Of a stretch of 38,521 nucleotides of DNA, positions 3,576-28,847 are shown piece after piece (position 1 is the stretch's first letter; the number at the start of each line of letters is the position of its first letter). Origin of the DNA: Pseudomonadota bacterium. Lineage in GTDB: Bacteria > Desulfobacterota > Anaeroferrophillalia > Anaeroferrophillales > Tharpellaceae. The DNA is taken from NCBI GenBank assembly GCA_015486505.1, contig WFRP01000193.1:1-38521 (forward strand), in the 5' to 3' direction. The translations under genes and the position numbers were made by a program. The notes under the pieces are model-generated. The model saw only the letters and a list, made by a program, of their open reading frames with translations. It had not been told where the DNA came from and did not search any database.

Positions 3576-3588
3576 CGCCAGACTTTGT

Positions 3589-3664: not shown

Positions 3665-3672
3665 GATATCAG

Positions 3673-9872: not shown

Positions 9873-9929
9873 GACTATACTTAACTGAACTTTTCAGGGT
9901 CTGTTAAAAAAACAGACAAACATTTCAAA

Positions 9930-10259
9930 CTAAATCTTGAGAACGAGCATCAGAGCGATAACCAGAGCGTAAATAACCAGAGACTCGATCATCGCCAGAC
10001 CGATAATCATCGGGGTTGTGATCTTGTTGGCGGCACTGGGGTTACGGCCAATACTTCCAAGCGCGGAGAAGATACCCATTCCCTGGCCCAAAGCACCACC
10101 GAATGCGGCAATACCGATAGCGATAGCCGCTGCATAAGCATAAGCCATTCCGCTGCCGTTACTGCCGCTTGCTGCAGTTGCAGCCGCTTCATTTGCCATG
10201 GCGGCAGTACCTACACACAGGGTTGCGATCGTGACTACGACCTGAACTAATCTTTTCAT
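9930..10259 (-). CDS. atpE: ATP synthase F0 subunit c with N-terminal signal-like presequence
   Basis: 109 aa; [27 protein letters not shown]...[20 protein letters not shown]. Confidence 0.95.
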
Positions 10260-10330
10260 TTTGTCACCTCCTTACAGTTTATGGTTGTATGTTGATCCCG
10301 GCAGCCAGCGGCCGCCGGAAGTAAAATATA

Positions 10331-11038
10331 TTAATGATCGTGCGAAAGCGCCCCTTCAAAATAGGCCAGGGTGAGCAGGGTAAAAACAAAGGTCTGGACA
10401 ATGGCTACGAACAGTCCCAGAAATGCGATCGGTACCGGCACCAGGATCGGGCAGAGCATGACAAAAATTGCCGCGACGAGATGGTCACCCATGATGTTAC
10501 CGAAAAGACGCAGAGAAAGCGACATCGGCCGGGCCAGATGACCGATGATTTCAATCGGAATCATTAAAGGGGAGAGCCAGAGAAACGGCCCGACAAATTG
10601 TTTAAGATATTTGGGACCGTGTTCCTGCCAGCCGTAATAATGGGTCATAAAAAAGACCGTCAGCGCGCAGGCGGCGGTGGTGTTGATATTGTCGGTCGGC
10701 GGGGTAAAACCCGGGATCAGGCCGGAGAGGTTAGAAAAGAGGATAAAGAAAATAATGCCGCCGATTATACAGAGGAACTTCCGCGAAACCTCGGCTCCAA
10801 GACTGTCGCTGATTAATTTGAGGATACCCTCAACCATAGTCTCCAGAAGATTCTGCAACGTAAAGCGGCCCTCAGGAATAATCAGCTCCTCAGGGTCGCA
10901 GCTGCGAATTTTGCGGGTGCCCAGCAGAACCAGGATAACAACAAACAGGGAGACCAGAATGGCATTGGCAATGTGTACCGGGATCGTATTCAGGCCGGGG
11001 ATCAATCCGACCCAGGTGATAGTAGGTGCGTGATGCAT
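10331..11038 (-). CDS. atpB: ATP synthase F0 subunit a
   Basis: 235 aa; LSLSLRLFGNIMGDHLV, PIEIIGHLARP. Confidence 0.95.
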   Translation of the reverse strand: MHHAPTITWVGLIPGLNTIPVHIANAILVSLFVVILVLLGTRKIRSCDPEELIIPEGRFTLQNLLETMVEGILKLISDSLGAEVSRKFLCIIGGIIFFILFSNLSGLIPGFTPPTDNINTTAACALTVFFMTHYYGWQEHGPKYLKQFVGPFLWLSPLMIPIEIIGHLARPMSLSLRLFGNIMGDHLVAAIFVMLCPILVPVPIAFLGLFVAIVQTFVFTLLTLAYFEGALSHDH

Positions 11039-11078
11039 AATCTTTCCTCAAAGTAACTGATTATTAGGGATATACCGG

Positions 11079-11489
11079 TTAATCCTCAGGTTTTGCTTTA
11101 GCCTGAGGCTTGCTGAAAACCAAAAATGTTACTGTTTCTAAAGCAATGCTGCCGAACAGGGCCGAAAATCCAACCAAAAAACCCAACGGTCGGCATATGT
11201 GAGACAGAATCACCGCGATGGTAATTGTGGTCAGGCCAAGCGTCAGCAGCAGCAATATCACGCCGATTTTAGCGCCGGCTTTAGCCGCAGTTCCCAGGTT
11301 GCCGGTATTCACGAAAGTCCGGCTGATCAGGAGGCTTAATGCCGAAAAATAGGCGAACGCGAGAATCCCGCCGATTGCCACTCCGGCGACATCGACCTGT
11401 TTGATATCGACCAGCCCGGCACTCAGGCTCAGCCCGGCCGTAATGACAAGCATAAAAAGACTGATTCGCCGTAATCTTTGATCTTTCAT
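11079..11489 (-). CDS. atpI: ATP synthase subunit I-like protein
   Basis: 136-aa four-TM protein between atpB and the AtpZ-like gene. Confidence 0.65.
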   Translation of the reverse strand: MKDQRLRRISLFMLVITAGLSLSAGLVDIKQVDVAGVAIGGILAFAYFSALSLLISRTFVNTGNLGTAAKAGAKIGVILLLLTLGLTTITIAVILSHICRPLGFLVGFSALFGSIALETVTFLVFSKPQAKAKPED

Positions 11490-11501
11490 TTTAACCGGCG
11501 A

Positions 11502-11798
11502 CTATCGGTTCCCGGCATTATCATTTTCCTGCTCTTTTTCAAGCTCTTTTAACGCCAGGTAAACCCGCTTGAAACCGGCCGCTATCCCGCAGAGTAGTAA
11601 AAAAATCGTCAGCCACGGCGACGTGCCGAACCGGCGGTCAAGAAAGTAGCCGCTGAAGACTCCGATAGCCACGGAAAAACCGAGCTCAAGGCCGACCGTA
11701 CCGTAGCGGCTTACCTGGCTGAAAGCTTTTTTGAATTTTGCTTCCTGCGGTTTGCTGCCGGCGGTCGGCGGGTTTTCTGGAGTCAGCTTTCTGGGCAC
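11502..11798 (-). CDS. atpZ: AtpZ/AtpI family protein
   Basis: 98 aa; GTVGLELGFSVAIGVFSGYFLDRRFGTSPWLTIFLLLCGIAAGFKRVY is typical of AtpZ. Confidence 0.8.
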   Translation of the reverse strand: MPRKLTPENPPTAGSKPQEAKFKKAFSQVSRYGTVGLELGFSVAIGVFSGYFLDRRFGTSPWLTIFLLLCGIAAGFKRVYLALKELEKEQENDNAGNR

Positions 11799-11810
11799 CG
11801 TAAACTCTTT

Positions 11811-11884
11811 TAAGTGCTCTTATCTGAACATTTTCTGACTACTGAATCTTGTTTTTCGGGCAGAAAATATCCTGCTTAAAGCAC
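11811..11884 (-). repeat. Diverged half-unit (palindromic arm) of repeat family A
   Basis: Reverse complement ggtgctttaagcaggatattttctg..caagattcagtagtcagaaaatgttcagataagagcactta matches the left module of the other copies. Confidence 0.7.
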
Positions 11885-11929
11885 CGATTGAAAAAGGTCG
11901 CGCCCCTTTAGCATAGGCGTAGTGTGAAG

Positions 11930-13219
11930 TCAAGATGAAATTGTTTTAAGTGCGAGCCGGACTGCTTCGAGGGTTCTGCCGAGATCATCCTGGCTATGCG
12001 CTGCTGAAATAAACCCGGCTTCAAATTGTGAAGGCGCCAGATAAATGCCCTGGTTTAACATAGCGCTAAAGTATTGCGCAAAATGCTTACAGTCGGAAGA
12101 TTGCGCCTGGCTGTAATTAGTTACCGGGGTCGAAGTAAAGTAGGTACATAACATAGAGCCGACCCGGTTGCAGACGTGGGGGATATTAAATTCCGAAAAA
12201 AGCGCGTTGATCCCGTCACCGAGCCAGGCGGATTTTTTTTCAAGTTCCGGATAGGGGTTCTCCTCCTTCAAGGTTCGTAGAGTAACAACGCCGGCGGCCA
12301 TGGCCAGCGGGTTTCCGGAAAGGGTCCCGGCCTGGTAGACCGCCCCCAAAGGCGCCAGATGCTCCATAATCTCCCGCTTGCCGCCAAAAGCGCCAACCGG
12401 CAGGCCGCCGCCGACAATCTTGCCGAGGCAGGTCAGGTCGGGGCTGATATTGTAAAGGGTCTGAGCGCCGCCGAAAGCGACTCTGAAACCGGTCATGACT
12501 TCATCGAAAATCAGGACAATCCCGTGTTTTGTGCAGCGATCACGCAGGCCCTGGAGAAAATCCGGCTGCGGCGGGATGGTGCCCATATTGCCGGCTACCG
12601 GTTCGACAATTATCGCCGCTATTTCGTCAGCGCAATCTTGAAGCAGGCTGTCGATGGAGCCTAAATCATTATAAATCGCCGAAAGGGTGTTGCGGGTAAA
12701 TTCTTCCGGGACTCCGGCGCTGTCGGGTACGCCGAGAGTGGTGGCCCCCGAACCGGCTTCAACCAGTAAATAATCGACATGGCCGTGGTAGCAGCCGGCA
12801 AATTTTACAATCTTTTTTCGCCCGGTATAGCCGCGGGCGAGGCGGATGGCGCTCATGGTCGCTTCGGTGCCGGAATTAACCATCCGCACCATCTCAATGC
12901 TGGGCAGTGCCGCGCAGATCTCTTCCGCCATTTCAATCTCAAGAATGGTCGGGGCGCCGAAACTGGCACCGCGGGCGACCCGGTCGCGGATTGCTTCGAC
13001 GACCGCCGGATGGGCGTGGCCGAGAATCATCGGCCCCCAGGAACCGACATAATCAATATATTCGTTACCGTCGACATCGTAGACTTTACTGCCGCGGCCG
13101 CGGATGATAAACGGCGGCTCAAGATTTACAGATTTATAGGCTCGAACCGGGCTGTTGACGCCGCCGGGTATGACTTTCCGGGCCCGGTGGAAAAGTTTTT
13201 CAGAAGTTGTCCGCTTCAT
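11930..13219 (-). CDS. hemL: Glutamate-1-semialdehyde 2,1-aminomutase
   Basis: 429 aa; [51 protein letters not shown]. Confidence 0.96.
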
Positions 13220-13372
13220 TATTATTTCCTCTATAATATGCGATAGGTAAAGGTGGTTTGGACCGGGTTGATTTATTCGCGGGCGCTATACCGCAGGAGT
13301 TGGATGTTGTCAATAAATTTTGCCGGAGTTACACTTTATATAGCTCCCGGCGGGTTGAGATGTCGCCAGGCA

Positions 13373-13656
13373 TTAGTACCTTACAGGTTATTTTCTGCAC
13401 CAAAAAACAAGATTTAATAATCAGAAAATGTTCTGATAAGAGTACTTATTTGCGGGCCGGAAACTTTCTTTTGGGTTGCGGGATTTGTTCCCGCATTAGT
13501 ACCTTACAGGTTATTTTCTTGTTTTTTTCGACAGCTTTTTTCAACTGTAAAAACAAGAAAATGTTCTGATAAGAGTACTTATTTGCGACCAGCGGATTGC
13601 CCCTGGGTGCGGGCCGAAAAGCCCTGTTTGGGTTGCGGGATATGTTCCCGCATTAG
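13373..13656 (+). repeat. Tandem dimer of palindromic repeat family A (units 13373-13495 and 13496-13656)
   Basis: Same units as at 7498-7783, with the two loop variants in the opposite order. Confidence 0.9.
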
Positions 13657-14264
13657 ATCGTTATTTCGGTAGCTTCGGTAGCTTCGTGGTTTTTGTTTTC
13701 CGGTACCGGCGTGGGGGCGGTGGAATCTTCCTGCGGGTTTTTGCCGGGTTTCAGGATTTCAGTTTTGAGTTGGAGAAATTCATCTTTACTGAGAAGCCCG
13801 CGGTCATAAAGTTCCGACAGGCGTAAAAGATCGTTACGCGGGGCGGCAGTCGGAGAAAGTTCGGGCAGGGCCCGGAGTTCCCGAACCGGGTTCTCCAGCA
13901 TCAGTTGATCATTTTCTTTCGGGCCCTTGATGGAAATCGAGGCGAGGCCGCCGAGCAGGCTTATTTCAATGTTCTGTCCCGGAAATGACGGGTTTTGCAG
14001 AGTGTTCAGGATCTGTTTGCCGTTTTGTTTGATCAGGCGGTAGAAAAACACGCCGGAGCCGATTATAAGTAAAACTCCGGCGCCCAGAATATATTCTATG
14101 TATTCAGAGATTCCCTGAATAAAAACGACCGCCGTTGCCAGGAATATGACCAGCAAAAGATGGATTACCAGAACCAGGTAGCCTGCCATAATCCCGCTGA
14201 AGAGCGGTTTTTTTTTGTTTTCTGACATTTTTTTGTTTTCGGACATTGTGTTGTTTTCGGACAT
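13653..14264 (-). CDS. Membrane protein with C-terminal SHOCT-like domain
   Basis: Two TM segments, then LLRLSELYDRGLLSKDEFLQLKTEIL. ORF opens at a TTG (14309); three in-frame ATGs in a MSEN(K/N)(K/T) repeat make 14264 the first ATG. Confidence 0.7.
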   Translation of the reverse strand: MSENNTMSENKKMSENKKKPLFSGIMAGYLVLVIHLLLVIFLATAVVFIQGISEYIEYILGAGVLLIIGSGVFFYRLIKQNGKQILNTLQNPSFPGQNIEISLLGGLASISIKGPKENDQLMLENPVRELRALPELSPTAAPRNDLLRLSELYDRGLLSKDEFLQLKTEILKPGKNPQEDSTAPTPVPENKNHEATEATEITI

Positions 14265-14528
14265 TGTGCCCCCGGATAGTTCTGCAGTAATGTTTGGTGA
14301 TTTTTGCAAACAAAGGGGCTGTTTATACAGGCTTTTTTTTATTTAAGCAATGAAATAGTTCCCGGAAAATCTTGTTGGGGCTGTGGTGCGGCCGACAAAA
14401 ACCAACACTTCTTTCCCGTACTCACGGCTACCCCGGGTGGATTCATAAAAAAAATCGCGTCGCGCTGACATTTGTATGCGAACTTACAAAAATTGTCGAT
14501 TGTATTTTGGAAAAGAAAGTTTTTTTCC

Positions 14529-14557
14529 TTGACATCGATAAGTGGTCTCGGTATATA
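14529..14557 (+). promoter_or_regulatory. Candidate sigma70 promoter of the nuo operon
   Basis: TTGACA (14529-14534), 17-bp spacer, TATATA (14552-14557). Confidence 0.7.
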
Positions 14558-14673
14558 GGCCGCGCTTTAATAAAAAGGTTCACATAGTCATTATTGTCGA
14601 CTAATACATTAATGTTAAGTGAATGTGGATTTTGAGTGTCCTGTAGGCCTGTTGCAGATTTGGGGTGAAAATA

Positions 14674-15030
14674 ATGTTGCGTGATTATGTGCCGGTTCTG
14701 GTGATGTTGCTGGTAGGGTTGGGTTTCGGTGTGGTGGCAGTGATTCTGTCGAGTGTTCTCGGTCCGAATCGAAAGTCACGGGTCAAAAAAGAGACCTATG
14801 AATGCGGTATGACGACGATTGGCGCCTCCTATGTGCAGACGCCGATTAAATACTATGTGGTCGCGTTGCTTTTTCTCGTATTTGATCTTGAATGTGTTTT
14901 TCTTTATCCCTGGGCGGTACACTATAAGAGCTTAGGGTTTTTCGGTTTTGTCGAGATGGTCCTCTTTATGGTGGTCCTTTTCGTCTGTTATGTCTATGTC
15001 TGGAAAAAGGGAGCCTTGGAATGGGAATAG
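14674..15030 (+). CDS. nuoA: NADH-quinone oxidoreductase subunit A
   Basis: [45 protein letters not shown]. Confidence 0.96.
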
Positions 15031-15551
15031 AGAGTGCATTAAAGGGCGACGGATTCCTGGTCACCAACCTTGAGGGTTTAGTTAACTGGGGACGTAAGAA
15101 TTCGATCTGGCCCTGTACCTTCGGTCTGGCCTGATGCGCTTTGGAGATGATGGCTACCAGTTTGGCTAGCTACGATATCGCCCGCTTCGGTTCCGAAGTT
15201 TTTCGACCGTCGCCGCGCCAGTCCGATCTGATGATCGTGGCTGGGACCCTGACCAAGAAGATGTCGGTTATGGTCAAGCGCATTTACGAACAGATGGCCG
15301 AGCCGCGCTGGGTGATTGCCATGGGGGCCTGCGCTTCCTGCGGCGGTGTTTTTCAGAGCTATTCAGTGGTTCAGGGGGTTGATCAGGTGATTCCGGTTGA
15401 TGTCTATGTGCCCGGTTGTCCGCCCCGTCCTGAAGCTCTTCTGGCCAGCGTTATGAAACTGCAGGACAAGATTACGCGGGATAAATTCTGTGATCGTCCG
15501 GACTATGAAGAGCCTTCAAGCCGGAAATCCGAGATTGTCAGTTTGTGTTAG
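15021..15551 (+). CDS. nuoB: NADH-quinone oxidoreductase subunit B, candidate selenoprotein (UGA/Sec38 in place of the first N2 cysteine)
   Basis: ATG 15021 overlaps the nuoA end. [40 protein letters not shown](15132-15134)[19 protein letters not shown]...MGACASCGG...VPGCPPRP is NuoB in a single frame on both sides of the TGA. The ORF track only shows 15141-15551. Confidence 0.85.
15151..15172 (+). promoter_or_regulatory. Candidate bacterial SECIS hairpin of nuoB
   Basis: GCTA-CC-AGTTT-GG-(C bulge)-TAGC (15153-15170) plus weak outer pairs, starting about 17 nt after the TGA; loop contains GU. Confidence 0.4.
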
Positions 15552-15584
15552 TTCAAGAAAGAATAATTTAGAGAGTAGACCGCC

Positions 15585-16082
15585 ATGGATAACGCAAAGG
15601 TTCTGGAGCAGCTTAAAGGTAAGTTTGCTGACGCGATCATCGAGGATATTGAATTTCGCGGCGACTTGACTGTTGTTGTCAGCTTCGAAAAGCTGCATGA
15701 GATTATGCTCTACCTGCATGATGATAAATCCCTGCATTATGATCTTTTGTCGGATGTTGTCGGGATCGATAAACTGCCGTGTGAGCCGCGTTTTGAGATT
15801 GTTTACGTTCTTAACTCCATGGCTGATTATCGGCGTCTGCTGGTCAAGGTCAATGTTGATATTGACGTGGCCGTACCGACAGTAACCGACATCTGGAAGT
15901 CGGCGGACTGGCCCGAACGTGAAGTATATGACCTGCTGGGCATTGAATTTGCCGGTCATCCGGATCTGCGGCGGATTTTGATGTGGGACGACTTTGACGG
16001 CCATCCTCTGCGCAAAGACTTCCCCCTGCGCGGAAAAGATTTTGATGAAAAATGGGATCCTTCAACAATCCGGGTTCTTTAA
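15585..16082 (+). CDS. nuoC: NADH-quinone oxidoreductase subunit C
   Basis: 165 aa; [48 protein letters not shown]. Confidence 0.96.
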
Positions 16083-16226
16083 GATTGATGCCCTCGTAAA
16101 AACTCCGGAGAAAAATTTTCAACCACTACATATAGTGATTGTAGGTATTAAAAAACACAACATATTGTGTCTGAAATTCTTGTGAAATACTTTTTACGGG
16201 TCCATCAAGATTAACGATCAAAACAT

Positions 16227-16362
16227 TTAGTACCTTACAGGTTATTTTCTTGTTTTAAAACAAGAAAATGTTCTGAAAAGAGCACTTATTTGCGACCAGC
16301 GGATTGCCCCTGGGTGCGGGCCGCAAGGCTCCGTTTGGGTGCGGGGTCTGTTCCCGCATTAG
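16227..16362 (+). repeat. Single unit of palindromic repeat family A between nuoC and nuoD
   Basis: TTAGTACCTTACAGGTTATTTTCTTGTTTTAAAACAAGAAAATGTTCTGAAAAGAGCACTTATTTGCG...GTTCCCGCATTAG. Confidence 0.9.
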
Positions 16363-16487
16363 CATTGCAACTGCTTGAGCGTAAGCGAGTTTTGCAATGC
16401 GGGCGCAGCGAGCGTAAGGAAAAACAGAAACCTTAACGCCTGGCGGAGAAAAACCGCGCCCGACCCCGGATTCGGCTTAATAGTTAC
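16359..16487 (-). mobile_element. Partial inverted copy of MITE-like family B, abutting the family A unit
   Basis: Contains 'gcgggcgcagcgagcgtaaggaaaaacagaaaccttaacgcctggcggagaaaaaccgcgcccgaccccggattcggcttaatagttac', reverse complement of the left part of 31465-31703. Confidence 0.85.
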
Positions 16488-16528
16488 AACATTTATAACT
16501 TAAATTAATACCATAGAGGTTGGCAGCG

Positions 16529-17701
16529 ATGGCAGACGGTAAAATATTGACCATCAACATGGGTCCGCATCACCCGGCGACGCACGGGGTTCTGCGGCTG
16601 GTTCTGGAGCTTGACGGCGAGACCATCGTCAAGGTCACGCCCCATATTGGTCATCTGCACCGGGGCATCGAAAAGTTGGCGGAGAATATGAATTACCAGC
16701 AGGTAATTCCGCTGACCGACCGTTTTGACTATACTGCCGCTTCACTCAATAACCTGGGTTACTGTACTGCGGTTGAGAAGCTTCTCGGTATCGAAGTGCC
16801 GAAGCGGGCCCAGTATATTCGGGTGATAATGTCGGAGTTGGCCCGAATAATGGGGCATCATCTCTGGATCGGCAGTCATGCCCTCGATATCGGGGCGATG
16901 ACGGTGGTTTTCTACGCTTTCCGGGATCGGGAAATGATCATGAACATGGTCGAAGAGGTTTCCGGCTACCGGTTGACGCCTTCGTACATGCGGGTCGGGG
17001 GCCTGGCTCGTGATATAACCCCGGAATTTATTAAATGCCTGCGCGAATTTATCAAATGGTTTCCGACCGCGGTTGCCGGTTACAACACCCTTTTGACCGA
17101 TAATATCATCTGGCGTAAGAGAACCATGGATATCGGCGTAATCAGCGCTGAAGAAGCTGTCAATTATGGTTTGACCGGGCCCTCACTGCGGGGTTCCGGG
17201 GTGCCCTATGATCTTCGTAAAGTTAAGCCTTACAGCAGTTATGACGACTTTGATTTCAAGGTGCCGGTTGGCGCAAAAGGCGATGTTTATGATCGTTACC
17301 TGGTGCGGATGGAAGAGTTTATCCAGTCGCTCAATATTATCGAACAGGCTTTGGAAAATCTGCCCGAAGGGCCGGTTAATGTCGATAACCCGCTGATTTT
17401 CAATCCGCAGATCGATGACGTTCAGAAAGATATCAGCGCTTTAATCCGGCGCTTCAAGATTCAGTGTCAGGGGCCGGTAATTCCTGAAGGTGAAATTTAC
17501 CATGCGGTTGAAGGCTCCAAAGGTGAGCTTGGTTTCTATCTGGTGGGCGACGGGAGCGAAAGTCCCTATCGGATGAAGGTGCGCTCCCCCTGTTTTATCC
17601 TGGTCAGCGCTTTGGAAAAACTGATGCTCGGCCATATGATTGCTGATGCGATTGCGATTATCGGCAGCATTGATATTGTCCTGGGTGAGATTGACCGTTA
17701 G
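16529..17701 (+). CDS. nuoD: NADH-quinone oxidoreductase subunit D
   Basis: NMGPHHPATHGVLRLVLELDGETIVKVTPHIGHLHRGIEKLAE; C-terminal DIVLGEIDR. Confidence 0.96.
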   Translation: MADGKILTINMGPHHPATHGVLRLVLELDGETIVKVTPHIGHLHRGIEKLAENMNYQQVIPLTDRFDYTAASLNNLGYCTAVEKLLGIEVPKRAQYIRVIMSELARIMGHHLWIGSHALDIGAMTVVFYAFRDREMIMNMVEEVSGYRLTPSYMRVGGLARDITPEFIKCLREFIKWFPTAVAGYNTLLTDNIIWRKRTMDIGVISAEEAVNYGLTGPSLRGSGVPYDLRKVKPYSSYDDFDFKVPVGAKGDVYDRYLVRMEEFIQSLNIIEQALENLPEGPVNVDNPLIFNPQIDDVQKDISALIRRFKIQCQGPVIPEGEIYHAVEGSKGELGFYLVGDGSESPYRMKVRSPCFILVSALEKLMLGHMIADAIAIIGSIDIVLGEIDR

Positions 17702-17763
17702 TTTTTTAAGTATAAGTAAAAATTTTTTGAGTAAGTTGCGTAACAGTTAATGGGAGTCGGTTG

Positions 17764-19716
17764 ATGGCTGAGATTTTATTTAGTTCCTGGGGCGGTGAAG
17801 TCGTTGATAACCGCCAAAAAGACGGCCAGGACTTTGAGCCGGTTAATACAGTTGATTTACCGGAATATTTCAGGCAGGATGAAGCGGTTAAGGCCCTGAT
17901 GGGCTGGTACGGCATCGTTATTCGAGATCCGGAAACCGATATTGTCGATTTGAGCCGGGTCTATATTCAGGAAGTTCAGAATAAGTCCTGCGGTAAATGT
18001 TTTCTCTGTCGCATCGGCACCCGGGTTATGGCCGAAACCCTTGAACGAATCTGTAATGGTCAGGGTAAATCCGAAGATCTTGAAATCCTGAAACGTCTGG
18101 CGGATTCAATCCGGGAATCCTCAAAGTGTAACATCGGTCAATCCGGCCCCCTGCCGATTATCGATGCCCTGGAGCATTTTGCAGATGATTTTGCCGCTGC
18201 CGTCAACGCGAAAAAGAGCGTTACTCCCGGCACCTACCACGCAAAACTGACCGCGCCCTGTATGGATGCCTGCCCGATCCATTTAGATATCCCCAATTAC
18301 GTCGAATGTATCAAAGAGGGGCGTTTTGCTGAATCCCTTGATATTATTCGGGAAAAACTGCCGCTGCCGGGGGTTGTCGGTCGGGTCTGTGTTCGTCCCT
18401 GTGAAGAACACTGCCGGCGGATGAATCTTGATGCGCCGATTTCGATCAAGTTCCTCAAACGTTTTGTCGCCGATTATGAATTGGGTAAGGGCAAAGAACC
18501 GGAGTTTACGATTACGCCTTCGGAAAAAACCGGGAAGGTCGCGATTGTTGGCGCGGGGCCCAGCGGTGCGACCTGTGCCTTCCATCTGCGGAAGATGGGG
18601 CATGAAGTCACCGTGTACGAACGTTTCAATGAGCCTGGCGGGATGTCGGCGATGGGGATTCCCGATTATCGCCTGCCGCGGCCGATCTTGAGGGAAGAGG
18701 TTGACCGGATTGAGCGGATGGGGGTGACCTTCAATTACGGAACGACGGTCGGCAAGGATATTAAACTCTCGCAGCTTGAAGCTGAGAATGATGCGGTATT
18801 TATCGCCATCGGGGCCCAGATGGGAACGACGATGGGGGTTGAAGGCGAGGAAGAGAACTATGCCGGTTACATCTCCGGGGTGCAGTATCTTTTGGATATT
18901 AACCAGGGCCGGGACCCCTATCCTGAAGGTAAGAAAGTCGCGGTCATCGGCGGCGGTAACGTCGCGATAGACTGTGTCCGCTGTTCTTTCCGGGTCGCTA
19001 AAGATGATGTCAATCTTATCTATCGCCGGACCAAGAACGAGATGCCCGCCGATGATGTTGAAATTCATGACGCCGAAGAAGAAAAAGTAAATTTTCATTA
19101 TCTTACGCATCCGGTTAAAATTCTGGCCGAAAACGGCAAGGTCGTCGGCCTGCGCTGTGTAAAAATGGAACTCGGCGAGCCCGATGAGAGCGGCCGCCGC
19201 CGGCCGCAGCCGATAGAAGGCTCTGAGTTTGTAATCGATTGTGATATTGTCGTCCCGGCAATCGGTCAGACGATGGATCTTTCGCTTCTCGAAGGGCGTG
19301 AAGATGTCAAGACCACGCGCTGGAAAACGATTGTCGTTGACGAAGTAACCAAGCAGAGCGACCAGCCGAAAATCTTTTCCGGCGGTGACTGTGAAACCGG
19401 GCCCGGGGCTTTGATTACCGCCTGTGCCGGGGGCCGGACCGCGGCTTTTAATATCGATAAACTGATCAACGGCCAACCGCTTGATTACAGCGAGGATGAT
19501 TATTTTGATAAATTTTTCAGCAAGGTCAAGGTTTTTGACCCGGCTGAAGATATCGGATTTCTGGGCGGTCGTGAGCGGAAAGAACTGAAAATGCTGGATC
19601 CGGATACCCGCAAGTTCAGCAACGCTGAAGTTGAGCAGGGATTTTCGATTAATGATGCCATGGCCGAAGCCGATCGTTGTCTGCGCTGTTATCGGGTAGC
19701 AACGGTTAAGGTCTGA
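17764..19716 (+). CDS. NuoF-like 4Fe-4S domain fused to GltD-like FAD/NAD(P)-binding oxidoreductase
   Basis: N-terminal SCGKCFLCRIGTRVMAETLERI...SSKCNIGQSGPLPI (NuoF C-terminal cluster domain), then GltD motifs (VAIVGAGPSGATCAFHLRKMGHEVTVYE, VAVIGGGNVAIDCVRCSFR, SGGDCETGPGALITACAGGRTAA). Confidence 0.9.
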   Translation: MAEILFSSWGGEVVDNRQKDGQDFEPVNTVDLPEYFRQDEAVKALMGWYGIVIRDPETDIVDLSRVYIQEVQNKSCGKCFLCRIGTRVMAETLERICNGQGKSEDLEILKRLADSIRESSKCNIGQSGPLPIIDALEHFADDFAAAVNAKKSVTPGTYHAKLTAPCMDACPIHLDIPNYVECIKEGRFAESLDIIREKLPLPGVVGRVCVRPCEEHCRRMNLDAPISIKFLKRFVADYELGKGKEPEFTITPSEKTGKVAIVGAGPSGATCAFHLRKMGHEVTVYERFNEPGGMSAMGIPDYRLPRPILREEVDRIERMGVTFNYGTTVGKDIKLSQLEAENDAVFIAIGAQMGTTMGVEGEEENYAGYISGVQYLLDINQGRDPYPEGKKVAVIGGGNVAIDCVRCSFRVAKDDVNLIYRRTKNEMPADDVEIHDAEEEKVNFHYLTHPVKILAENGKVVGLRCVKMELGEPDESGRRRPQPIEGSEFVIDCDIVVPAIGQTMDLSLLEGREDVKTTRWKTIVVDEVTKQSDQPKIFSGGDCETGPGALITACAGGRTAAFNIDKLINGQPLDYSEDDYFDKFFSKVKVFDPAEDIGFLGGRERKELKMLDPDTRKFSNAEVEQGFSINDAMAEADRCLRCYRVATVKV

Positions 19717-19732
19717 TCCGGACAGGTTCCCA

Positions 19733-19797
19733 TTAAAGGGCACTTATTTGCGGGCCGTAAGGTCCTGCTTGGGTTGCGGGATCTGTTCCCGCATTAG
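19733..19797 (+). repeat. Partial unit (right module) of repeat family A between the nuoF-like gene and nuoG
   Basis: 'cacttatttgcgggccgtaaggtcctgcttgggttgcgggatctgttcccgcattag'. Confidence 0.8.
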
Positions 19798-19849
19798 CAG
19801 ATATATTTTCGATTTATTTAAGTAAAATTTTTACGCAGGGAAAATTAGT

Positions 19850-22525
19850 ATGGTCACGTTGACGATTGACGGCAAAGAAGTCACCGTCCCCCAGGGAACG
19901 ACCATCCTTGAGGCGGCCCGGAGTGTCGATATCAGAATACCGACACTCTGTTACCACGATCGTTTGAACCCTATCGGTTCATGTCGGATGTGTGTAGTTG
20001 AGATCGAAGGTTATACGCACCCGATGGCGGCCTGTACGACACCGGTTGATGACGGGATTGAGGTTGTTACCTCATCTGAGCGTCTGACCCGGATTCGGCA
20101 GGATTCGCTGAAACTGATTCTGGTTAATCATCCACTTGATTGTCCGGTTTGTGATAAGGGCGGTGAGTGTCTGCTTCAGGATCTGACCTTCGAATTCGGA
20201 ATTGACCAGCTTGAATATCAGGCGGCCAAGGTTGAGCGTGATTCACAATACGCGTCACCTTTGATTCGTTACTGGCCCGACCGTTGTATTATGTGCCTGC
20301 GTTGCGTTACCGCCTGTCAGGAGATTAAAGGGATCGGCGCTATCAGTATCGCTGGTGACGGTTACGGAGCCCAGGTCGTTACGGTGGACGCGGATAAATG
20401 TCAATCCTGTGGCGAATGCCTGCAGGTGTGTCCGACCGGAGCCCTGACTGAAGATTTGAGTCGTTACAAAGGCCGGACCTGGCTGATTGAGCGGGTGCCG
20501 ACCACCTGTACCTATTGCGGTTGCGGCTGTCAGCTTGAACTTAACGTGCAGAACGACCGGATTATAGCGGTAACCACCAAAGACGGGGTCGGCATCAATA
20601 AGGGCAGTCTCTGTGTCAAAGGGCGTTTCGGTTATGAATTCGTCAATAGTGACGAACGTCTGACCAAACCCCTGATTAAGAGGGATGGTAAATTTGAGGA
20701 AGCGAGCTGGGATGAGGCTCTGGATCTGGTAGCGGAGAAGTTTTCGGCAATCAAGGGTGAGTACGGCCCCGGCGCCATCGGCGGCTTGACTTCGGCCCGC
20801 TGCACTAACGAAGAAAACTACCTTTTTCAAAAATTTATGCGCGCGGCGATCGGAACCAATAATGTCGATCACTGCGCCCGGCTCTGACACTCCTCAACTG
20901 TGGCCGGACTGGCCGCAACGTTTGGAAGTGGGGCAATGACCAACCCGATTGCCGATGTCTTGAAGTCCGAGACCGTGCTTGTAACCGGAACCAATACCAC
21001 CGAAAATCATCCGATTTTTGCCAACTACCTGAAAGAGGCCGTACTTAAACACGGCACCAAAATTCTGGTAATTGATCCGCGACGCATCGATTTGGTTGAC
21101 TATGCCGAACTCTACCTGCAGCCGAAGCCGGGCACTGATATTGCCTGGATTAACGGCCTGATGCATATTATTCTCAAGGAAGGCTGGGCCGATCAGCAAT
21201 ATATCGATGAACGCTGTGAGGGCTTTGCCGAATTTGCCGCCAATCTCGAAAAATTTACGCCGGAATATGTCTCCGGAATTACCGGTTTGACCGAAGCCGA
21301 ACTCCGTGCTGCGGCCAAACTTTACGGACAGGCGGCTCCGGCATCAATCCTTTACGCGATGGGCATCACCCAGCATACCAGTGGTACCGATAATGTAAAA
21401 TCACTGGGTAACCTGGCGATGCTCTGCGGTAATATGGGCGTTGCCGGCGGCGGGGTTAATCCGTTGCGCGGTCAAAACAATGTTCAGGGTGCCTGCGATA
21501 TGGGCGGCCTGCCTAATGTTTATACCGGTTATCAGAAAGTTGATGTTGATGAAGTCCGGGAAAAATTTGCCAAAGCCTGGGGTCTTAAAGCCGACGATCT
21601 CGATGCCGCACCCGGACTGAAACTGACCGAGATGTTTCCGGCGGCCGCTGATGGCAAAATTAAAGCCATGTACATTATGGGCGAGAATCCCCTGGTCAGT
21701 GACCCGGATTTAACCCATATTGAGCACTGTGTCGAAGCTCTTGATTTCTTTGTCGTTCAGGATATCTTCCTGACCGAGACCGCGCAGATGGCCGATGTCG
21801 TGTTGCCCGGGGTCTCATTCGCGGAAAAAGACGGGACGTTCGTAAACTCGGAACGACTCGTTCAGCGGGTGCGCAAAGCCCTGACAATTCCCGGTGAGGC
21901 TCGCGCAGACAGTGAGATTATCGCTGAGATCGCAACCCGGATGGGTTATGAGATGAAATATAAAGATGCGGCCGCGATCATGAAAGAGATCAATGATGTG
22001 ACCCCGAGCTACGGCGGTATCACTTATGAGCGGCTGGAAAACGGCGGTCTCGCCTGGCCCTGCCCCGATGTTGAGCATCCGGGAACCCCGATTCTGCATG
22101 TCGATAAGTTTGCCCGCGGTAAAGGTTTGTTTTTTGCGATTGATCATCAGCCGCCGGCTGAACTCTGTGATAAAGAGTATCCTTTTGTGCTTTCGACCGG
22201 TCGGGTGCTGTCCCATTTCCATACCGGGACTATGACCCGTAAAGGTGAAGGCTTAAATAAGGTTCATCCTGAGGTCAAAGCAGAAATCAATCCTGAAGAT
22301 GCCGCGCGTCTCGGGGTTGTCGAAGGTGACCTTCTGAAGATCACCTCCCGGCGCGGTGCGATTGAGGTCAAGGCAATGCTCAGCGACCGGCCCGCGTCCG
22401 GGGTGGTCTTTGTTCCTTTCCATTTCCATGAAGTTGCCGTTAACCGCCTGACTAATGCCGCCCTTGATCCGGTTGCTAAAATTCCGGAATACAAGGTCTG
22501 CGCGATAAAGGTTGAGAAAGCTTAA
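19850..22525 (+). CDS. fdhA: NuoG-position formate dehydrogenase alpha subunit, selenoprotein (UGA/Sec at 20885-20887)
   Basis: Two ORF-track pieces in one frame. NuoG/FDH N-terminal Fe-S domains, [55 protein letters not shown] (FDH active-site Arg region). Confidence 0.93.
20899..20917 (+). promoter_or_regulatory. Candidate SECIS hairpin of the formate dehydrogenase gene
   Basis: 7-bp stem TGTGGCC / GGCCGCA around loop GGACT, starting 11 nt after the TGA. Confidence 0.6.
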
Positions 22526-22580: not shown

Positions 22581-23567
22581 ATGCTGGAATATATGACCAT
22601 ATTGATAATCAAAGCGTTAGTGGCGTTTACCGTTAGCTTACTGATTGTAGCTTATTCGACCTGGATCGAGCGCAAGGTTTTAGGCCATGTCCAGTTGCGG
22701 CACGGCCCGCGCCGGGTCGGCTTTCATGGTCTTTTGCAGCCGATTGCTGATGGTATCAAAGGCTTTTTCAAGGAAGAGCTGGTGCCGGATAATGCTGATA
22801 AACCGCTCTTTCTGCTCGCTCCGGTTATCAGTATCGCGGCCGCGGTGGCCCTGATTGTAATCGTTCCTTTCGGGGACAAGGTTACCATCATGGGACATGA
22901 AATCACCCTCTATCTGACCGATCTTGATGTCGGGGTCCTCTTTGTTCTCGGGATCTCAACGATCGGCGCCTACGGCGGTATCCTCGGGGGCTGGTCCTCG
23001 GGTAATAAATACGGGGTTATCGGCGGCTTGCGCGGCGCGGCCCAGATGATAAGTTATGAGCTTTCGATGGCGCTGGCGGTTATCGCCGTGGTTATGGTCA
23101 GCGGCTCTTTAAGCCTGATTGACATAGTCAACGCGCAGACCGGGCTCTGGAATATCGTCAAGCAGCCGTTTGCCTTTGTTCTTTTTATTATCTGCGGCCT
23201 GGCTGAAATCAACCGGACTCCGTTTGATATGCCCGAAGCTGAGGCTGAGTTGGCCTGTGGTTTCAACGTCGAATACAGCTCAATGAAATTCGCCCTCTTC
23301 TTCATGGCGGAATACTGCCATATGTTTGTCTTTTCCGCGCTGGTCACGACCTTCTTTCTCGGCGGCTGGCATGGGCCGATTATCGATGGTCCGCACTGGT
23401 TTTTCCTTAAAACTTTTCTGGTTATTTTCTTCTGTGTCTGGGAGCGTTCAACCTTTCCCCGCCTGCGTTATGATCAGATTATGAGTTTCGGCTGGAAAAT
23501 TCTTCTGCCTTTCGGCCTGTTGAATATCCTTTTGACCGGGTTGTGGATGATAGTTTTTAATATGTAA
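22581..23567 (+). CDS. nuoH: NADH-quinone oxidoreductase subunit H
   Basis: 328 aa; ERKVLGHVQLRHGPRRVGFHGLLQPIADGIK, AEINRTPFDMPEAEAELACGFNVEYSSMKF. Confidence 0.97.
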   Translation: MLEYMTILIIKALVAFTVSLLIVAYSTWIERKVLGHVQLRHGPRRVGFHGLLQPIADGIKGFFKEELVPDNADKPLFLLAPVISIAAAVALIVIVPFGDKVTIMGHEITLYLTDLDVGVLFVLGISTIGAYGGILGGWSSGNKYGVIGGLRGAAQMISYELSMALAVIAVVMVSGSLSLIDIVNAQTGLWNIVKQPFAFVLFIICGLAEINRTPFDMPEAEAELACGFNVEYSSMKFALFFMAEYCHMFVFSALVTTFFLGGWHGPIIDGPHWFFLKTFLVIFFCVWERSTFPRLRYDQIMSFGWKILLPFGLLNILLTGLWMIVFNM

Positions 23568-23608: not shown

Positions 23609-24085
23609 ATGGCAGATAAAGATTACATACTCAACATTACTGATCGGCGGCCGACCGGCAAATATATAACGCCGATTCTTAAGGGCTTAGGTTATACCCT
23701 GAAGAATTTTTTCAGTAAGCCGATCACGATCAAGTACCCGACTGAACGGCGGGAAGTCAGTGATCGCTGGCGCGGTCTGCATCGTCTTAAAGTCGATGAC
23801 AAGGGTGCCCTTAAATGCGTTGCCTGCGGCCTCTGCGCAAAAATCTGCCCGCCTCAGGCGATAACCATTGTACCTTACGAAGAAGCGGGCCAGACCCGTT
23901 ACCCGAAAGAGTTTGTAATTGATGAGTTGCGTTGCATCTTCTGCGGTTTCTGTCAGGAAGCCTGCCCGAAAGACGCGATTGAACTGACCAAGGTTTACGA
24001 TTTTGTTGATTACGAGCGCAAAGATTTTATTTTCGACATCGAAAAATTGAAAACCCCGGAAAAATATATCTTCAACGGCAAATAG
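23609..24085 (+). CDS. nuoI: NADH-quinone oxidoreductase subunit I
   Basis: 158 aa; two 4Fe-4S motifs CVACGLCAKICP and CIFCGFCQEACP. Confidence 0.96.
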   Translation: MADKDYILNITDRRPTGKYITPILKGLGYTLKNFFSKPITIKYPTERREVSDRWRGLHRLKVDDKGALKCVACGLCAKICPPQAITIVPYEEAGQTRYPKEFVIDELRCIFCGFCQEACPKDAIELTKVYDFVDYERKDFIFDIEKLKTPEKYIFNGK

Positions 24086-24098: not shown

Positions 24099-24608
24099 AT
24101 GGAACTGGTATTTTTATTGATATGCGGCGGAGTGGCGGTTATCGCCTCGTTGCTGGTTATCTTTGCGCGCTCAACCTTGCACAGTGCTCTGTGGATGGTT
24201 TTATCATTCTTTATGATTGCGGTAGTCTATGTGTTGCTGCAGGCCCAGTTTCTGGCGATGTTGCAGGTAATAGTCTATGCCGGGGCGATTATGATGTTTA
24301 TTATCTACGCGATTATGATGCTGAATCTGCGGCAGGAATCGCGGCAGAAGACCGGCGCCCGGATCTCCAAGATTATCGGTGTCGGCTCTCTGATTGTGCT
24401 TTTTCTTGAACTTATGCTGGTCAGCCTCGGGAACAATCTGACGCCTATCCCGGGCCCGGTTTCTGAAAAACTGGTGGCAACCTACGGCCGTATGGCGGTG
24501 ATCTCGAATTTTCTTTTTTCCGACTATCTGTTGCCGTTTGAAGTTGTTTCCATTCTCCTGACTGCGGGGGTTGTCGGCGCCGTAGTTCTGGCTAAACGCG
24601 AAAGATAA
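24099..24608 (+). CDS. nuoJ: NADH-quinone oxidoreductase subunit J
   Basis: HSALWMVLSFFMIAVVYVLLQAQFLAMLQVIVYAGAIMMFIIYAIMML. Confidence 0.96.
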   Translation: MELVFLLICGGVAVIASLLVIFARSTLHSALWMVLSFFMIAVVYVLLQAQFLAMLQVIVYAGAIMMFIIYAIMMLNLRQESRQKTGARISKIIGVGSLIVLFLELMLVSLGNNLTPIPGPVSEKLVATYGRMAVISNFLFSDYLLPFEVVSILLTAGVVGAVVLAKRER

Positions 24609-24620: not shown

Positions 24621-24926
24621 ATGGTTGATAATCAAAGTATATATCTGGCGCTCGCAATTACTCTTTTTATTATCGGGGCTGTCGGTGCGATCTGCCGCCG
24701 CAATGCGATTGTGGTTTTTATGTGTATCGAAATTATGCTGGCCGGAGTCGGTATTGCGTTTGTGACCTTCAGCAGCGCAAATCATTCTCTCGACGGTATC
24801 TTTATGGTTATTTTCGTTATGGCGGTGGCGGCGGCGGAAGCCGCGGTCGGGCTGGCGATTTTTCTGCTGATGTATCGTAAACTCGGTACGATTGATCTCG
24901 ATAAATTTAACCTCTTAAAGTGGTAA
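24621..24926 (+). CDS. nuoK: NADH-quinone oxidoreductase subunit K
   Basis: 101 aa; CIEIMLAGVGIAFVTFSS, VAAAEAAVGLAIFLLMYR. Confidence 0.96.
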   Translation: MVDNQSIYLALAITLFIIGAVGAICRRNAIVVFMCIEIMLAGVGIAFVTFSSANHSLDGIFMVIFVMAVAAAEAAVGLAIFLLMYRKLGTIDLDKFNLLKW

Positions 24927-25046: not shown

Positions 25047-27170
25047 ATGTTCGATTATATCTGGTTGGTACCGGTCTTTCCGGCCATCGGTGTCTTGATT
25101 AACGGTTTGCTCGGACGCCGAATCGAAGCGATCAATAAAAATTTGATCCACTGGATAGCCTGTGGTGTGATTGCTCTCTCCTTTATCGTTACCTGCACGA
25201 TTTTTTATCAACTGCTGCAGTTGCCGGCGGCTGAGCGTTTGCATCAGGTGACTTGTTTTACCTGGATTCACAGCGGCGTTCTTAAAACCTACGTTGCCTA
25301 CCAGATCGACCCGCTCTCAATGATGATGGCGATGTTCGTCATCGGTATCGGGTTTCTTATCCATGTTTACTCAATCGGCTATATGGATGGCGATCCGGGC
25401 CGATATTACCGCTTTTTTGTCTATCTTAATCTTTTCATGTTTTCAATGATCAACCTGATTCTGGCCAATAACTATCTTTTGATGTTTCTCGGCTGGGAAG
25501 GTGTTGGTTTATGCTCATATCTGTTGATCGGTTTCTGGTTTGAAGAGGAAGCCAATGCGGTTGCCGGGAAAAAAGCCTTTATTACCAACCGGGTTGGTGA
25601 CTTCGCTTTCCTGATCGGGATGTTCCTGCTTTTTACCGGGCTCGGTGAACATGGCGTCTGGAGTCTGCAGTTTGATAAAGTGTTTACGCATGTTCACCTC
25701 CTGACGAGCAGTCAGGCGACGGCTATCTGTCTCCTCTTCTTTATCGGTTGTACGGCGAAGTCAGCCCAGATTCCGCTCTATGTCTGGCTTCCCGATGCGA
25801 TGGCGGGTCCGACGCCGGTATCGGCGCTGATCCATGCCGCCACGATGGTAACCTCGGGTGTCTATATGATTACCCGGTCTAATATCCTGTTTTCGATGTC
25901 GCCGTTGGCAATGGGGGTTGTGGCTACCGTAGGAGCTATGACCGCCCTGTTTGCGGCATCGATCGGCCTGGTGCAGAACGATATTAAAAAGGTTCTGGCC
26001 TACTCGACCGTAAGTCAGCTCGGTTATATGTTTTTGGGCCTGGGGGTTGGCGCTTTTGCCGCCGGTATGTTCCACGTTTTGACTCACGCTTTTTTCAAAG
26101 CTCTGCTGTTTTTGGGCTCCGGCGCAGTAATCCATTCGATGCATCATGCCTACCATAAAGTTCATTCCCACGATGACGCTCAGGATATGCGCAATATGGG
26201 GGGATTGCGGAGTAAGACTCCAATCACATACTGGACTTTCCTGATTGGAACTTTGGCGATCTCCGGAATCCCGGGATTCTCCGGTTTCTTCAGTAAAGAT
26301 GAAATCCTCTGGCAGGCCTACAGCAGCCCCCAGGGTCACTGGCTGCTCTGGCTGATCGGCGCCGTTGCGGCGGGGATGACCGCATTTTATATGTTTCGCC
26401 TGGTCTTTATGACATTTTTTAATGATTGCCGGGCCGGTGAGGCGGCCGAGCATATCCATGAATCCCCGGCAACCATGACGGTGCCCTTATGTGTTCTGGC
26501 TTTCTTAGCGGCGGTCGGAGGCTATCTTGGTGTCCCCCATGCGCTCGGCGGCAGCAATCTTTTTGAACATTTTCTTGAGCCGATTATGGGGATGGGTGAT
26601 GGCAAACTTCTCCAGGATGCGGCCACAGCGGTTGCCCACGGTGCCCATCACGTTGTGCATGCGGCCGGAGAAACAATGCACGCCGCGGCCGGCCATGTTG
26701 CCGAAACCGTCCATACGGCGGCACATGCCGCGGCCGGTCACGCCGAAGTCGAAGCCCATCACGGTGGGCATCAGCCGCTCTGGCTTGAATATCTGCTGAT
26801 GGTGATTTCGGTGGCTCTGGCCTGCGGCGGAATCTTTATTGCCTATATGCTCTATATCGTCAAACGAGAGATCCCGGCGGCGCTGGCGGAAAAATACGCC
26901 TTTATCCATAGATTGCTGCTGAACAAATGGTATATCGATGAACTTTACGACGTGGTAATCATTTCACCTTTACGCGGCTTCAGCTATTTTCTCTGGAAGG
27001 GAATAGATGTCGGAGTGGTTGATTACATCGTCAACGGCGTTGCCCGGATCGTTGGCTGGGGGAGCACGGCGGTGCGTTATATGCAGTCCGGTTATGTGCA
27101 GAGTTACGCGGTGTCAGTGGTTTTCGGGACGGTGGTTTTACTCGCCTACTATTTCCTGAAGGCGCTGTAG
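25047..27170 (+). CDS. nuoL: NADH-quinone oxidoreductase subunit L
   Basis: 707 aa; FLGWEGVGLCSYLLIGFWFEE, AKSAQIPLYVWLPDAMAGPTPVSALIHAATMVTSGVYM. Confidence 0.97.
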   Translation: MFDYIWLVPVFPAIGVLINGLLGRRIEAINKNLIHWIACGVIALSFIVTCTIFYQLLQLPAAERLHQVTCFTWIHSGVLKTYVAYQIDPLSMMMAMFVIGIGFLIHVYSIGYMDGDPGRYYRFFVYLNLFMFSMINLILANNYLLMFLGWEGVGLCSYLLIGFWFEEEANAVAGKKAFITNRVGDFAFLIGMFLLFTGLGEHGVWSLQFDKVFTHVHLLTSSQATAICLLFFIGCTAKSAQIPLYVWLPDAMAGPTPVSALIHAATMVTSGVYMITRSNILFSMSPLAMGVVATVGAMTALFAASIGLVQNDIKKVLAYSTVSQLGYMFLGLGVGAFAAGMFHVLTHAFFKALLFLGSGAVIHSMHHAYHKVHSHDDAQDMRNMGGLRSKTPITYWTFLIGTLAISGIPGFSGFFSKDEILWQAYSSPQGHWLLWLIGAVAAGMTAFYMFRLVFMTFFNDCRAGEAAEHIHESPATMTVPLCVLAFLAAVGGYLGVPHALGGSNLFEHFLEPIMGMGDGKLLQDAATAVAHGAHHVVHAAGETMHAAAGHVAETVHTAAHAAAGHAEVEAHHGGHQPLWLEYLLMVISVALACGGIFIAYMLYIVKREIPAALAEKYAFIHRLLLNKWYIDELYDVVIISPLRGFSYFLWKGIDVGVVDYIVNGVARIVGWGSTAVRYMQSGYVQSYAVSVVFGTVVLLAYYFLKAL

Positions 27171-27260: not shown

Positions 27261-28847
27261 ATGAATGAACTAGGTTTTCCGATAATCAGCCTTGTGACCT
27301 TCTTTCCGATCTTCGGGGCTTTGGTCCTGATGTTTATCGATAAAGAGGCGAAAGATACACTTCGAGGCACAGCCATGGTTTTTGCCATGATTGAGTTCTT
27401 TATCTCGTTGCCGATCATCTTTGCTTTTCAGAGCGGTACCGCGGATATGCAGTTTGTTGAACGCTATACCTGGGTTAAAAGTGCCGGATTGAGCTATTAT
27501 ATCGGCCTTGACGGTATCAGCCTCTGGATCTTTATGCTGACTACTTTTTTAACTCCGATTTGTGTTCTGTGCTCCTGGACCTATATCCAGAAACGGGTCA
27601 AAGAATTTATGATCTGTCTGCTTCTCCTGGAGACCGCGATGCTCGGGGCTCTGGTCTCCCTTGATCTGATTCTTTTCTACATCTTCTGGGAACTGATGCT
27701 GATTCCGATGTATTTCCTGATCGGGGTCTGGGGCGGAGACAACCGGATTTACGCAGCGGTCAAGTTTTTTATCTATACCGCCGCCGGTTCGGTTTTTATG
27801 CTGCTGTCAATCTTCTTCCTTTATTACCTTAACCACAAGATGACCGGCGTTTATACTTTCGATCTTTTGGAACTTTATAAACTCAATATCCCGGTCGCGA
27901 CCCAGTTCTGGCTGTGTCTGGCATTTTTTGTCTCCTTTGCCATCAAGGTTCCGATGTTCCCGTTGCATACCTGGCTGCCCGATGCTCATGTACAGGCGCC
28001 GACTGCCGGTAGTGTGATTCTGGCGGGCGTCCTCTTGAAGATGGGGACTTACGGTTTTATGCGCTTTGCGATCCCGCTTTTTCCCTATGCCAGTAATCAG
28101 TTTACGCCGGTGATTGCGACTTTGGCGGTGGTCGGTATTATTTACGGGGCCCTGGTCGCATTGATTCAGCCGGATATGAAAAAACTGGTTGCCTATTCCA
28201 GCGTCAGCCATCTTGGCTATGTTATGCTGGGAATCTTCGCCTTTAATATGCAGGGTGTCGAAGGGGGCCTTTATCAGATGCTTAACCACGGTGTCAGCAC
28301 CGGGGCACTGTTTTTGATTGTCGGGATGCTTTATGAACGGCGGCATACGCGGATGATCAAGGATTTCGGTGGGATTGCCAAAGTTATGCCGGTTTTTGCA
28401 ACCTTCTTTATGATTATGACCTTATCCTCGATTGCGGTTCCCGGTACCAATGGTTTTGTCGGTGAGTTTATGATTCTGGTCGGCGCTTTCCGTTCTTTGC
28501 CGATGCATGCGGTTTTCGCCACCTCAGGGGCTATCCTTGGTGCCCTCTATATGCTCTGGATGTATCAGCGGGTTATGTTCCAGCCGCTCGACAATGAGAA
28601 AAATAAAGTCCTGAAAGACCTTAATGTTCGGGAGATTGTAACCCTTTTGCCGCTGGCGATCCTGGTTTTCGTTATGGGCTTTTTCCCCGGCTATTTCATC
28701 AATAAAATGAATGCGTCATGCGAGCATTTTCTGAAAACCTATGACCAGCAGGTGGCTATGTATAAACAGCAGGTTGAAGACAGCAGTCAGGCCAAACTTG
28801 CTCAGGTTATGTCGGCCAATCAGTTAAAAAGTACTTTAAGCGATTAA
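27261..28847 (+). CDS. nuoM: NADH-quinone oxidoreductase subunit M
   Basis: 528 aa; FYIFWELMLIPMYFLIGVWGG, VPMFPLHTWLPDAHVQAPTAGSVILAGVLLKMGTYG. Confidence 0.97.
   Translation: MNELGFPIISLVTFFPIFGALVLMFIDKEAKDTLRGTAMVFAMIEFFISLPIIFAFQSGTADMQFVERYTWVKSAGLSYYIGLDGISLWIFMLTTFLTPICVLCSWTYIQKRVKEFMICLLLLETAMLGALVSLDLILFYIFWELMLIPMYFLIGVWGGDNRIYAAVKFFIYTAAGSVFMLLSIFFLYYLNHKMTGVYTFDLLELYKLNIPVATQFWLCLAFFVSFAIKVPMFPLHTWLPDAHVQAPTAGSVILAGVLLKMGTYGFMRFAIPLFPYASNQFTPVIATLAVVGIIYGALVALIQPDMKKLVAYSSVSHLGYVMLGIFAFNMQGVEGGLYQMLNHGVSTGALFLIVGMLYERRHTRMIKDFGGIAKVMPVFATFFMIMTLSSIAVPGTNGFVGEFMILVGAFRSLPMHAVFATSGAILGALYMLWMYQRVMFQPLDNEKNKVLKDLNVREIVTLLPLAILVFVMGFFPGYFINKMNASCEHFLKTYDQQVAMYKQQVEDSSQAKLAQVMSANQLKSTLSD

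Follow-up and report, generated by a model that had tools for sequence, protein, structure and literature searches.

The window, a 38,521-nucleotide stretch of contig WFRP01000193.1 (assembly GCA_015486505.1), encodes one complex I operon on the forward strand, running from nuoA (14674) to nuoN (30397). The operon opens with nuoA (14674–15030; open reading frame and synteny with 30+ loci), nuoB (15021–15551; TIGR01957 and PRK06411 above cut-off with the TGA at 15132–15134 read as selenocysteine), nuoC (15585–16082; PF00329) and nuoD (16520–17701; PF00346, TIGR01962). A fusion gene and a combined nuoG/fdhA gene follow, and then nuoH (22581–23567; PF00146), nuoI (23609–24085; TIGR01971, two [4Fe-4S] clusters), nuoJ (24099–24608) and nuoK (24621–24926), both recognised by synteny and tblastn, nuoL (25047–27170; TIGR01974 and PRK06590 above cut-off), nuoM (27261–28847; TIGR01972) and nuoN (28928–30397; TIGR01770). 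The Q and P modules are complete, with NuoABCD and NuoHIJKLMN all present. From the end of nuoD at 17701 to the start of nuoH at 22581, the fusion and nuoG/fdhA are the only long forward-strand genes, and a profile search of the whole window returned no NuoE gene (PF01257). An earlier sequence-only reading had reported that nuoE is missing between nuoD and nuoH; the gene content and the PF01257 search bear this out and rule out a nuoE overlooked in the operon. A 31-nt direct repeat lies in two intergenic regions, nuoC–nuoD (16334–16364) and fusion–nuoG (19769–19799), and a 105-nt repeat (94%) occurs 3′ of nuoN at 30471–30575 and 31465–31569. On the reverse strand, the gene at positions 7790–9679, which adjoins ATP synthase a and c genes, joins a multihaem cytochrome c domain to a membrane domain of the cytochrome b561 type.

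The fusion gene (17764–19716, forward strand, ATG start) encodes a 650-residue protein, probably of SfrB type, in which a NuoF cluster domain is joined to a GltD-type oxidoreductase. PF10589, the NuoF C-terminal [4Fe-4S] (N3-type) domain, covers residues 66–146 counted from 17761 (17956–18198; 84.7 bits), and all 31 aligned relatives share its ligands C76, C79, C82 and C122. A GltD-type Fer4_20 domain (PF14691; residues 165–242; 18253–18486), predicted to hold two [4Fe-4S] clusters, leads into an FAD/NAD(P) domain (PF07992; residues 259–556; 18535–19428). The protein ends in an RCLRCY motif (19675–19692), and because both of its cysteines are likewise invariant in 31/31 relatives, we count RCLRC (residues 638–642) as probably supplying the remaining ligands that complete the two-cluster site. 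A domain search found no match to the FMN domain (PF01512) or to SLBB in the fusion, and an AF2 model of the protein scores pLDDT 90.5 and pTM 0.90. This Pfam anatomy upholds the earlier description of a NuoF 4Fe-4S domain joined to a GltD-type oxidoreductase without the NADH/FMN domain, in which the Cys-rich motifs CMDACPIHLDIP and CVRPCEEHC had also been read correctly. An assembly join or frameshift artefact is ruled out, since independent assemblies, from 96% down to 45% identical, show the same architecture and gene order.

The nuoG/fdhA gene (19850–22525, forward strand) encodes an 891-residue protein, selenocysteine included, with a NuoG-type Fe-S N-terminus followed by an FdsA-type formate dehydrogenase. 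The product scores 879.3 bits against the TIGR01591 Fdh-alpha model (cut-off 666.25) and gives a full-length match to the Rhodobacter capsulatus formate dehydrogenase alpha subunit (6tg9_A; residues 2–888, 777 bits). A single TGA at 20885–20887 in the context VDHCARL*HSSTVAGL places selenocysteine at active-site position 346, and U346, the histidine next to it, the lysine of CVKGR and the arginine of RGQNN are all present. The TGA is kept in nearly all formate dehydrogenase-type relatives, a SECIS-like hairpin lies 3′ of it (z=-1.9), and the genome encodes SelB (388 bits); UGA, hairpin and SelB together are as expected of a selenocysteine formate dehydrogenase. Judged by these residues and signals, the NuoG of the operon is in its catalytic part an intact seleno formate dehydrogenase.

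Scored wherever the locus sequence was long enough, the formate dehydrogenase residues (Sec or Cys, His, Lys, Arg) are preserved, apart from a rare single change, in the window itself and at loci L009–L019, L029, L037, L117–L125, L145, L146 and L155–L161. The site is lost and the fusion retained in L036, L038, L039, L044, L129–L139, L141, L142, L148 and L149. Because the fusion is kept where NuoG has lost its formate dehydrogenase site, the fusion probably feeds in electrons by itself, with formate input as a probable addition in some lineages, the window included. That the module is only a formate dehydrogenase is rejected as a general explanation, as the fusion persists in many operons whose site is dead.

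The in-frame TGA of nuoB (15132–15134) stands at the first of the tandem cysteines that ligate cluster N2, with a SECIS-like hairpin 3′ of it at 15151–15172 on the forward strand. Applied to 398 genomes of the phylum, an exact DNA pattern for this site recovered TGA in 35 (18 of 248 genera) and Cys in 194, and the reversed control pattern gave no match. Among the loci compared, the TGA also occurs in L009, L010, L011, L014–L017, L040, L048, L117, L118, L120–L123, L132, L133, L135–L137 and L144, and other relatives carry Cys. Sec-encoding nuoB genes have a hairpin about 26 nt past the UGA with covarying stems, and hairpin stability relative to synonymous shuffles is greater in Sec than in Cys genes (p=0.0016, optimistic because the sequences are related, with several Sec genes showing no excess). 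These data make NuoB a candidate new selenoprotein in which selenocysteine would be a ligand of the terminal complex I cluster; neither Nuo nor PF01058 is named in the text of an inventory of prokaryotic selenoproteins from 2026 (PMC13188914). An exclusive tie of Sec-NuoB to operons of the fusion type is not supported, as families f65, f79 and f30 have it with no listed fusion match.

Distribution and co-inheritance of the fusion

Relatives were drawn from named assemblies and from the 398 genomes of the phylum, of which 255 contain a fusion match at E<=1e-150, a count that includes longer relatives of ~1020 residues. Flanks were taken for 60 of the stronger matches, a sample of good matches rather than a random one. 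The NuoF–GltD architecture lies in a nuo operon in 36 of these 60 loci, which show the order nuoABCD–fusion–nuoG–HIJKLMN, or its visible part, in at least 18 Desulfobacterota families. The order nuoABCD–fusion–nuoG also appears at 42% identity on an actinobacterial contig outside Desulfobacterota (L049, a metagenome-assembled genome labelled Slackia heliotrinireducens), where contamination is possible. Across 32 complete loci, fusion distances correlate with those of NuoD (Mantel r 0.853), NuoH (0.829) and NuoB (0.792), and the complex I core subunits correlate among themselves at 0.895–0.908. The values for the fusion are not far below those among core subunits, and by this measure it acts like a lasting component of the complex, not like a passenger.

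Outside nuo operons, the fusion lies next to or near an active formate dehydrogenase in L021, L024, L043, L127, L128, L140 and L154 and next to inactive FdhA/NuoG-like genes in L151–L153 and L162–L174, and other relatives are found near ETF/HdrD-type genes. In L031, L045, L046, L050 and L147 it adjoins a corrinoid methyl-transfer cluster of MtrH, uroporphyrinogen-decarboxylase-like, B12-binding and RACo genes. A quick tree of the fusion, with some long branches, spreads the complex I contexts and nests soluble contexts among them, with the soluble pairs of fusion and NuoG-like subunit forming one clade; on this spread, a single local origin tied to the genus of the window is rejected. The NuoF part of the fusion is closer to HydB/StnB-type subunits (PDB E ~1e-28) than to complex I NuoF (~1e-13). 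Given this likeness, and given that soluble enzymes lacking nuo genes contain the fusion too, the gene is more aptly viewed as an already existing SfrB-type NADPH module that was captured than as a complex I NuoF that decayed.

In the ~1020-residue proteins of the phylum, the cluster domain and the GltD part are the same but are preceded by thioredoxin, FMN and SLBB domains. At one locus (L175 of genome G011, 189–7383), a NuoE gene is followed by a 1022-residue fusion of a full NuoF (Trx, FMN, SLBB, 4Fe-4S) to GltD and then by a seleno formate dehydrogenase gene, a set that is possibly a soluble formate/NADH/NADPH enzyme and perhaps a bifurcating one; many genomes of the phylum have similar open reading frames of ~1020 residues. 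By domain content, the fusion of the window looks like such a soluble NADH/NADPH/formate module minus its FMN part, or like the building block of that module.

A proposed NADPH- and formate-fed complex I

On balance, and with moderate confidence, we favor a reading in which 13 genes encode a complex I in which an SfrB-type NADPH module takes the place of the NADH module (NuoE and the FMN part of NuoF) and a seleno formate dehydrogenase serves as NuoG, giving an NADPH- and formate:menaquinone proton pump. We infer its docking, electron path, pumping and direction, along with its specificity for NADPH, as follows. NADPH would reduce the FAD of the GltD part, and electrons would pass through the two GltD-type [4Fe-4S] clusters to the retained N3-type cluster. 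The NuoF cluster domain, which in complex I structures is the part that contacts NuoG, may for that reason serve as a plug that docks the fusion onto the NuoG N-terminus. From the N3-type cluster, electrons would run through the NuoG clusters, NuoI (N6a/b) and NuoB (N2) to menaquinone, with the membrane arm pumping protons during menaquinone reduction. Formate would be oxidized at the Mo/W-Sec site of NuoG and feed the same wire, through which formate, NADP(H) and quinone could exchange electrons. Docking on NuoG is perhaps not general, as two fusion-type nuo operons (L143, L144) lack a nuoG in the interval from fusion to nuoH.

The rebuilt electron input of the sequence-only reading is conserved across many families and combines a pyridine-nucleotide site with a formate dehydrogenase site. 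That reading had further offered use of NAD(P)H or coupling of formate oxidation to NAD(P)+ reduction; the nucleotide site is present and NADPH is likely, but the likely electron sink, reached through complex I, is menaquinone and not NADP+ alone. The operon suggests that in anaerobes carrying it NADPH and formate, not NADH, supply a proton pump.

The fusion and NuoG/formate dehydrogenase could instead form a separate soluble NADP+-dependent formate dehydrogenase resembling SfrAB, only co-transcribed with an 11-subunit complex I, an account that we consider unlikely. The fusion does occur without nuo genes beside formate dehydrogenase or SfrA-like subunits (the active-enzyme loci listed above and L162–L174), and the same genome has a separate 11-subunit nuo cluster without EFG on contig C252 (L072 of G000; 9107–20000). 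Across at least 18 families, nevertheless, the pair occupies the exact nuoEFG place, and it co-varies with NuoD and NuoH; many operons keep a NuoG with a dead formate dehydrogenase site that would make little sense for a soluble formate dehydrogenase, and the surroundings of the other NuoE/F sets of the genome yielded no further full-length NuoG. An NfnL/GltA-like gene lies ~2.5 kb upstream of the C252 nuoB. A canonical second complex I that would make the operon redundant is ruled out, as the only second nuo core, that of C252, also lacks EFG.

The favored pump might also run mainly in reverse, with menaquinol and proton-motive force driving reduction of NADP+ and/or of CO2 to formate in a syntrophic or biosynthetic role. 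FdsA-type formate dehydrogenases are reversible, and relatives of the operon occur in metagenome-assembled genomes labelled Syntrophaceae or Syntrophobacterales. Against this, searches of the genome (97% complete, 351 contigs) found neither dsrA nor CdhC of the acetyl-CoA synthase family, and so lend no support to a sulfate-reducing or autotrophic Wood-Ljungdahl role. By its fusion, which is 85% identical to that of locus L015, the uncultured host belongs with Candidatus Tharpella, a lineage described as lacking sulfate reduction and thought to oxidize fatty acids and aromatics (PMC9213671). Electrons from this oxidation are proposed to reach the quinone pool of Tharpellota via complex I (PMC9213671), and we regard mainly reverse operation as unlikely.

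Returning to the forward, NADPH-fed reading, the choice of nucleotide rests on several lines of comparison. Solved structures closest to the FAD/NAD(P) part include those of NfnABC, StnC, NfnL, GltD and dihydropyrimidine dehydrogenase, which are for the most part described as using NADPH. The motifs GGGNVA, a GxGxxA sequence taken as NADP(H)-type (PMC7483475), and Y420-R421-R422, likewise typical of NADP(H), are invariant or nearly so in the 31 aligned relatives. Together with the SfrAB-like loci that share the domain order of the fusion, these relatives and motifs make NADPH, not NADH, the likely nucleotide. Complex I classically uses NADH, and a GltD-type site that has changed its specificity to NADH would fit that precedent; retention of the NADP-type GxGxxA and RR motifs among relatives and the predominance of NADPH enzymes among the solved ones make such a change improbable.

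A more speculative version of the NADPH-fed complex, which we hold to be a long shot, would have the FAD of the fusion bifurcate or confurcate, with one electron of NADPH going up to menaquinone via the pumping arm and the other down to the formate dehydrogenase site for reduction of CO2 to formate, or would have the proton gradient drive NADP+ and CO2 reduction, with a Sec-ligated N2 tuning the quinone step. If true, the enzyme would be an energy-coupled hub.

The sequence-only reading had left room for a complete nuoEF elsewhere in the genome, and four full NuoE/NuoF pairs do exist, on contigs C16, C83, C84 and C88. Their NuoF proteins are HydB-like (484–666 residues) and fall below the TIGR01959 cut-off, the C83 pair adjoins 2-oxoacid:ferredoxin oxidoreductase (Kor) genes and the C88 pair Hdr genes, and no nuo genes were found next to any of the four pairs in the flanks examined. 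By these features, neither the pairs nor the C252 cluster is an obvious source of NuoEF for the operon. Assembly of one of these NuoEF pairs with the complex in trans, alternating with the fusion, is very unlikely given HydB-like proteins that lie apart from nuo genes and in two cases adjoin Kor or Hdr genes.

Comparison with known systems

Among the closest known systems is SfrAB of Geobacter sulfurreducens (GSU0509-0510), an NADPH:Fe(III) oxidoreductase described as an NADPH dehydrogenase (PMC2669807, PMC7483475, PMC13186404), which likewise pairs a GltD-type NADPH subunit with a NuoG/FdhA-like partner. SfrAB is soluble and stands without nuo genes, whereas the fusion of the window lies in a nuo operon beside a partner with an intact Sec formate dehydrogenase site. 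Loci of the phylum that are SfrAB-like by gene content have the same PF10589–PF14691–PF07992 order next to an inactive FdhA-like gene, and the fusion of the window is ~40–45% identical to them; soluble enzymes that combine the same fusion with a NuoG/formate dehydrogenase-like subunit are probably the SfrAB of Geobacter. GltD is also joined to NuoG-like Fe-S modules in Stn/NfnABC-type enzymes (PMC7483475), bifurcating transhydrogenases that include the closest solved GltD-type domains (8oh5, 9bov, 9n5u). Those enzymes are soluble, have GltD fused to the NuoG-like subunit, and possess NuoE and an FMN/FAD NuoF-like subunit, both absent from the window. The NAD-dependent formate dehydrogenase FdsABG of R. 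capsulatus (6tg9) offers a whole-length match of FdsA to the NuoG of the window, but FdsB has an FMN/NADH site, whereas in the window the NuoF-like part is continuous with GltD and FdsG/NuoE is absent.

Relative to 14-subunit complex I, the window keeps NuoA–D and NuoH–N in canonical order together with the N-terminal Fe-S domains of NuoG, and differs in lacking NuoE and the NuoF FMN/NADH domain, in the formate dehydrogenase that forms the catalytic part of NuoG, and in the Sec codon of NuoB. It shares the lack of a canonical NADH module with 11-subunit complex I-like enzymes (NuoABCDHIJKLMN) such as that of D. hafniense (PMC11238625), yet unlike them it encodes a dedicated input module, fusion plus NuoG/formate dehydrogenase, in the place of EFG. 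Complex I clusters of Desulfobacterota and related lineages have been described as 'without NuoEFG' with the donor left open (PMC12142623, PMC9386147), and for Tharpellota complex I an NADH donor has been assumed (PMC9213671). In the nuo cluster of Desulfurivibrio (RS03515-03575), 11 subunits are named (PMC12142623), yet the tag range would accommodate 13 genes if tags advance by five, which makes it a candidate cultured relative for such an operon. We found no prior description of this complex in the open-licence PMC literature, and it is a real and widespread complex I variant, apparently undescribed, that is built of known parts and is new in their combination and distribution. For such nuo clusters, the fusion and its NuoG partner provide a concrete candidate input module that is widespread; its known relatives work with NADPH, and in some cases it comes joined to a live formate dehydrogenase, which makes the question of the donor directly testable. 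Known complex I variants draw electrons from F420H2 (Fpo), ferredoxin (NDH-1) or flavodoxin (Campylobacter), and the operon described here would be a further case of interchangeable complex I input modules.
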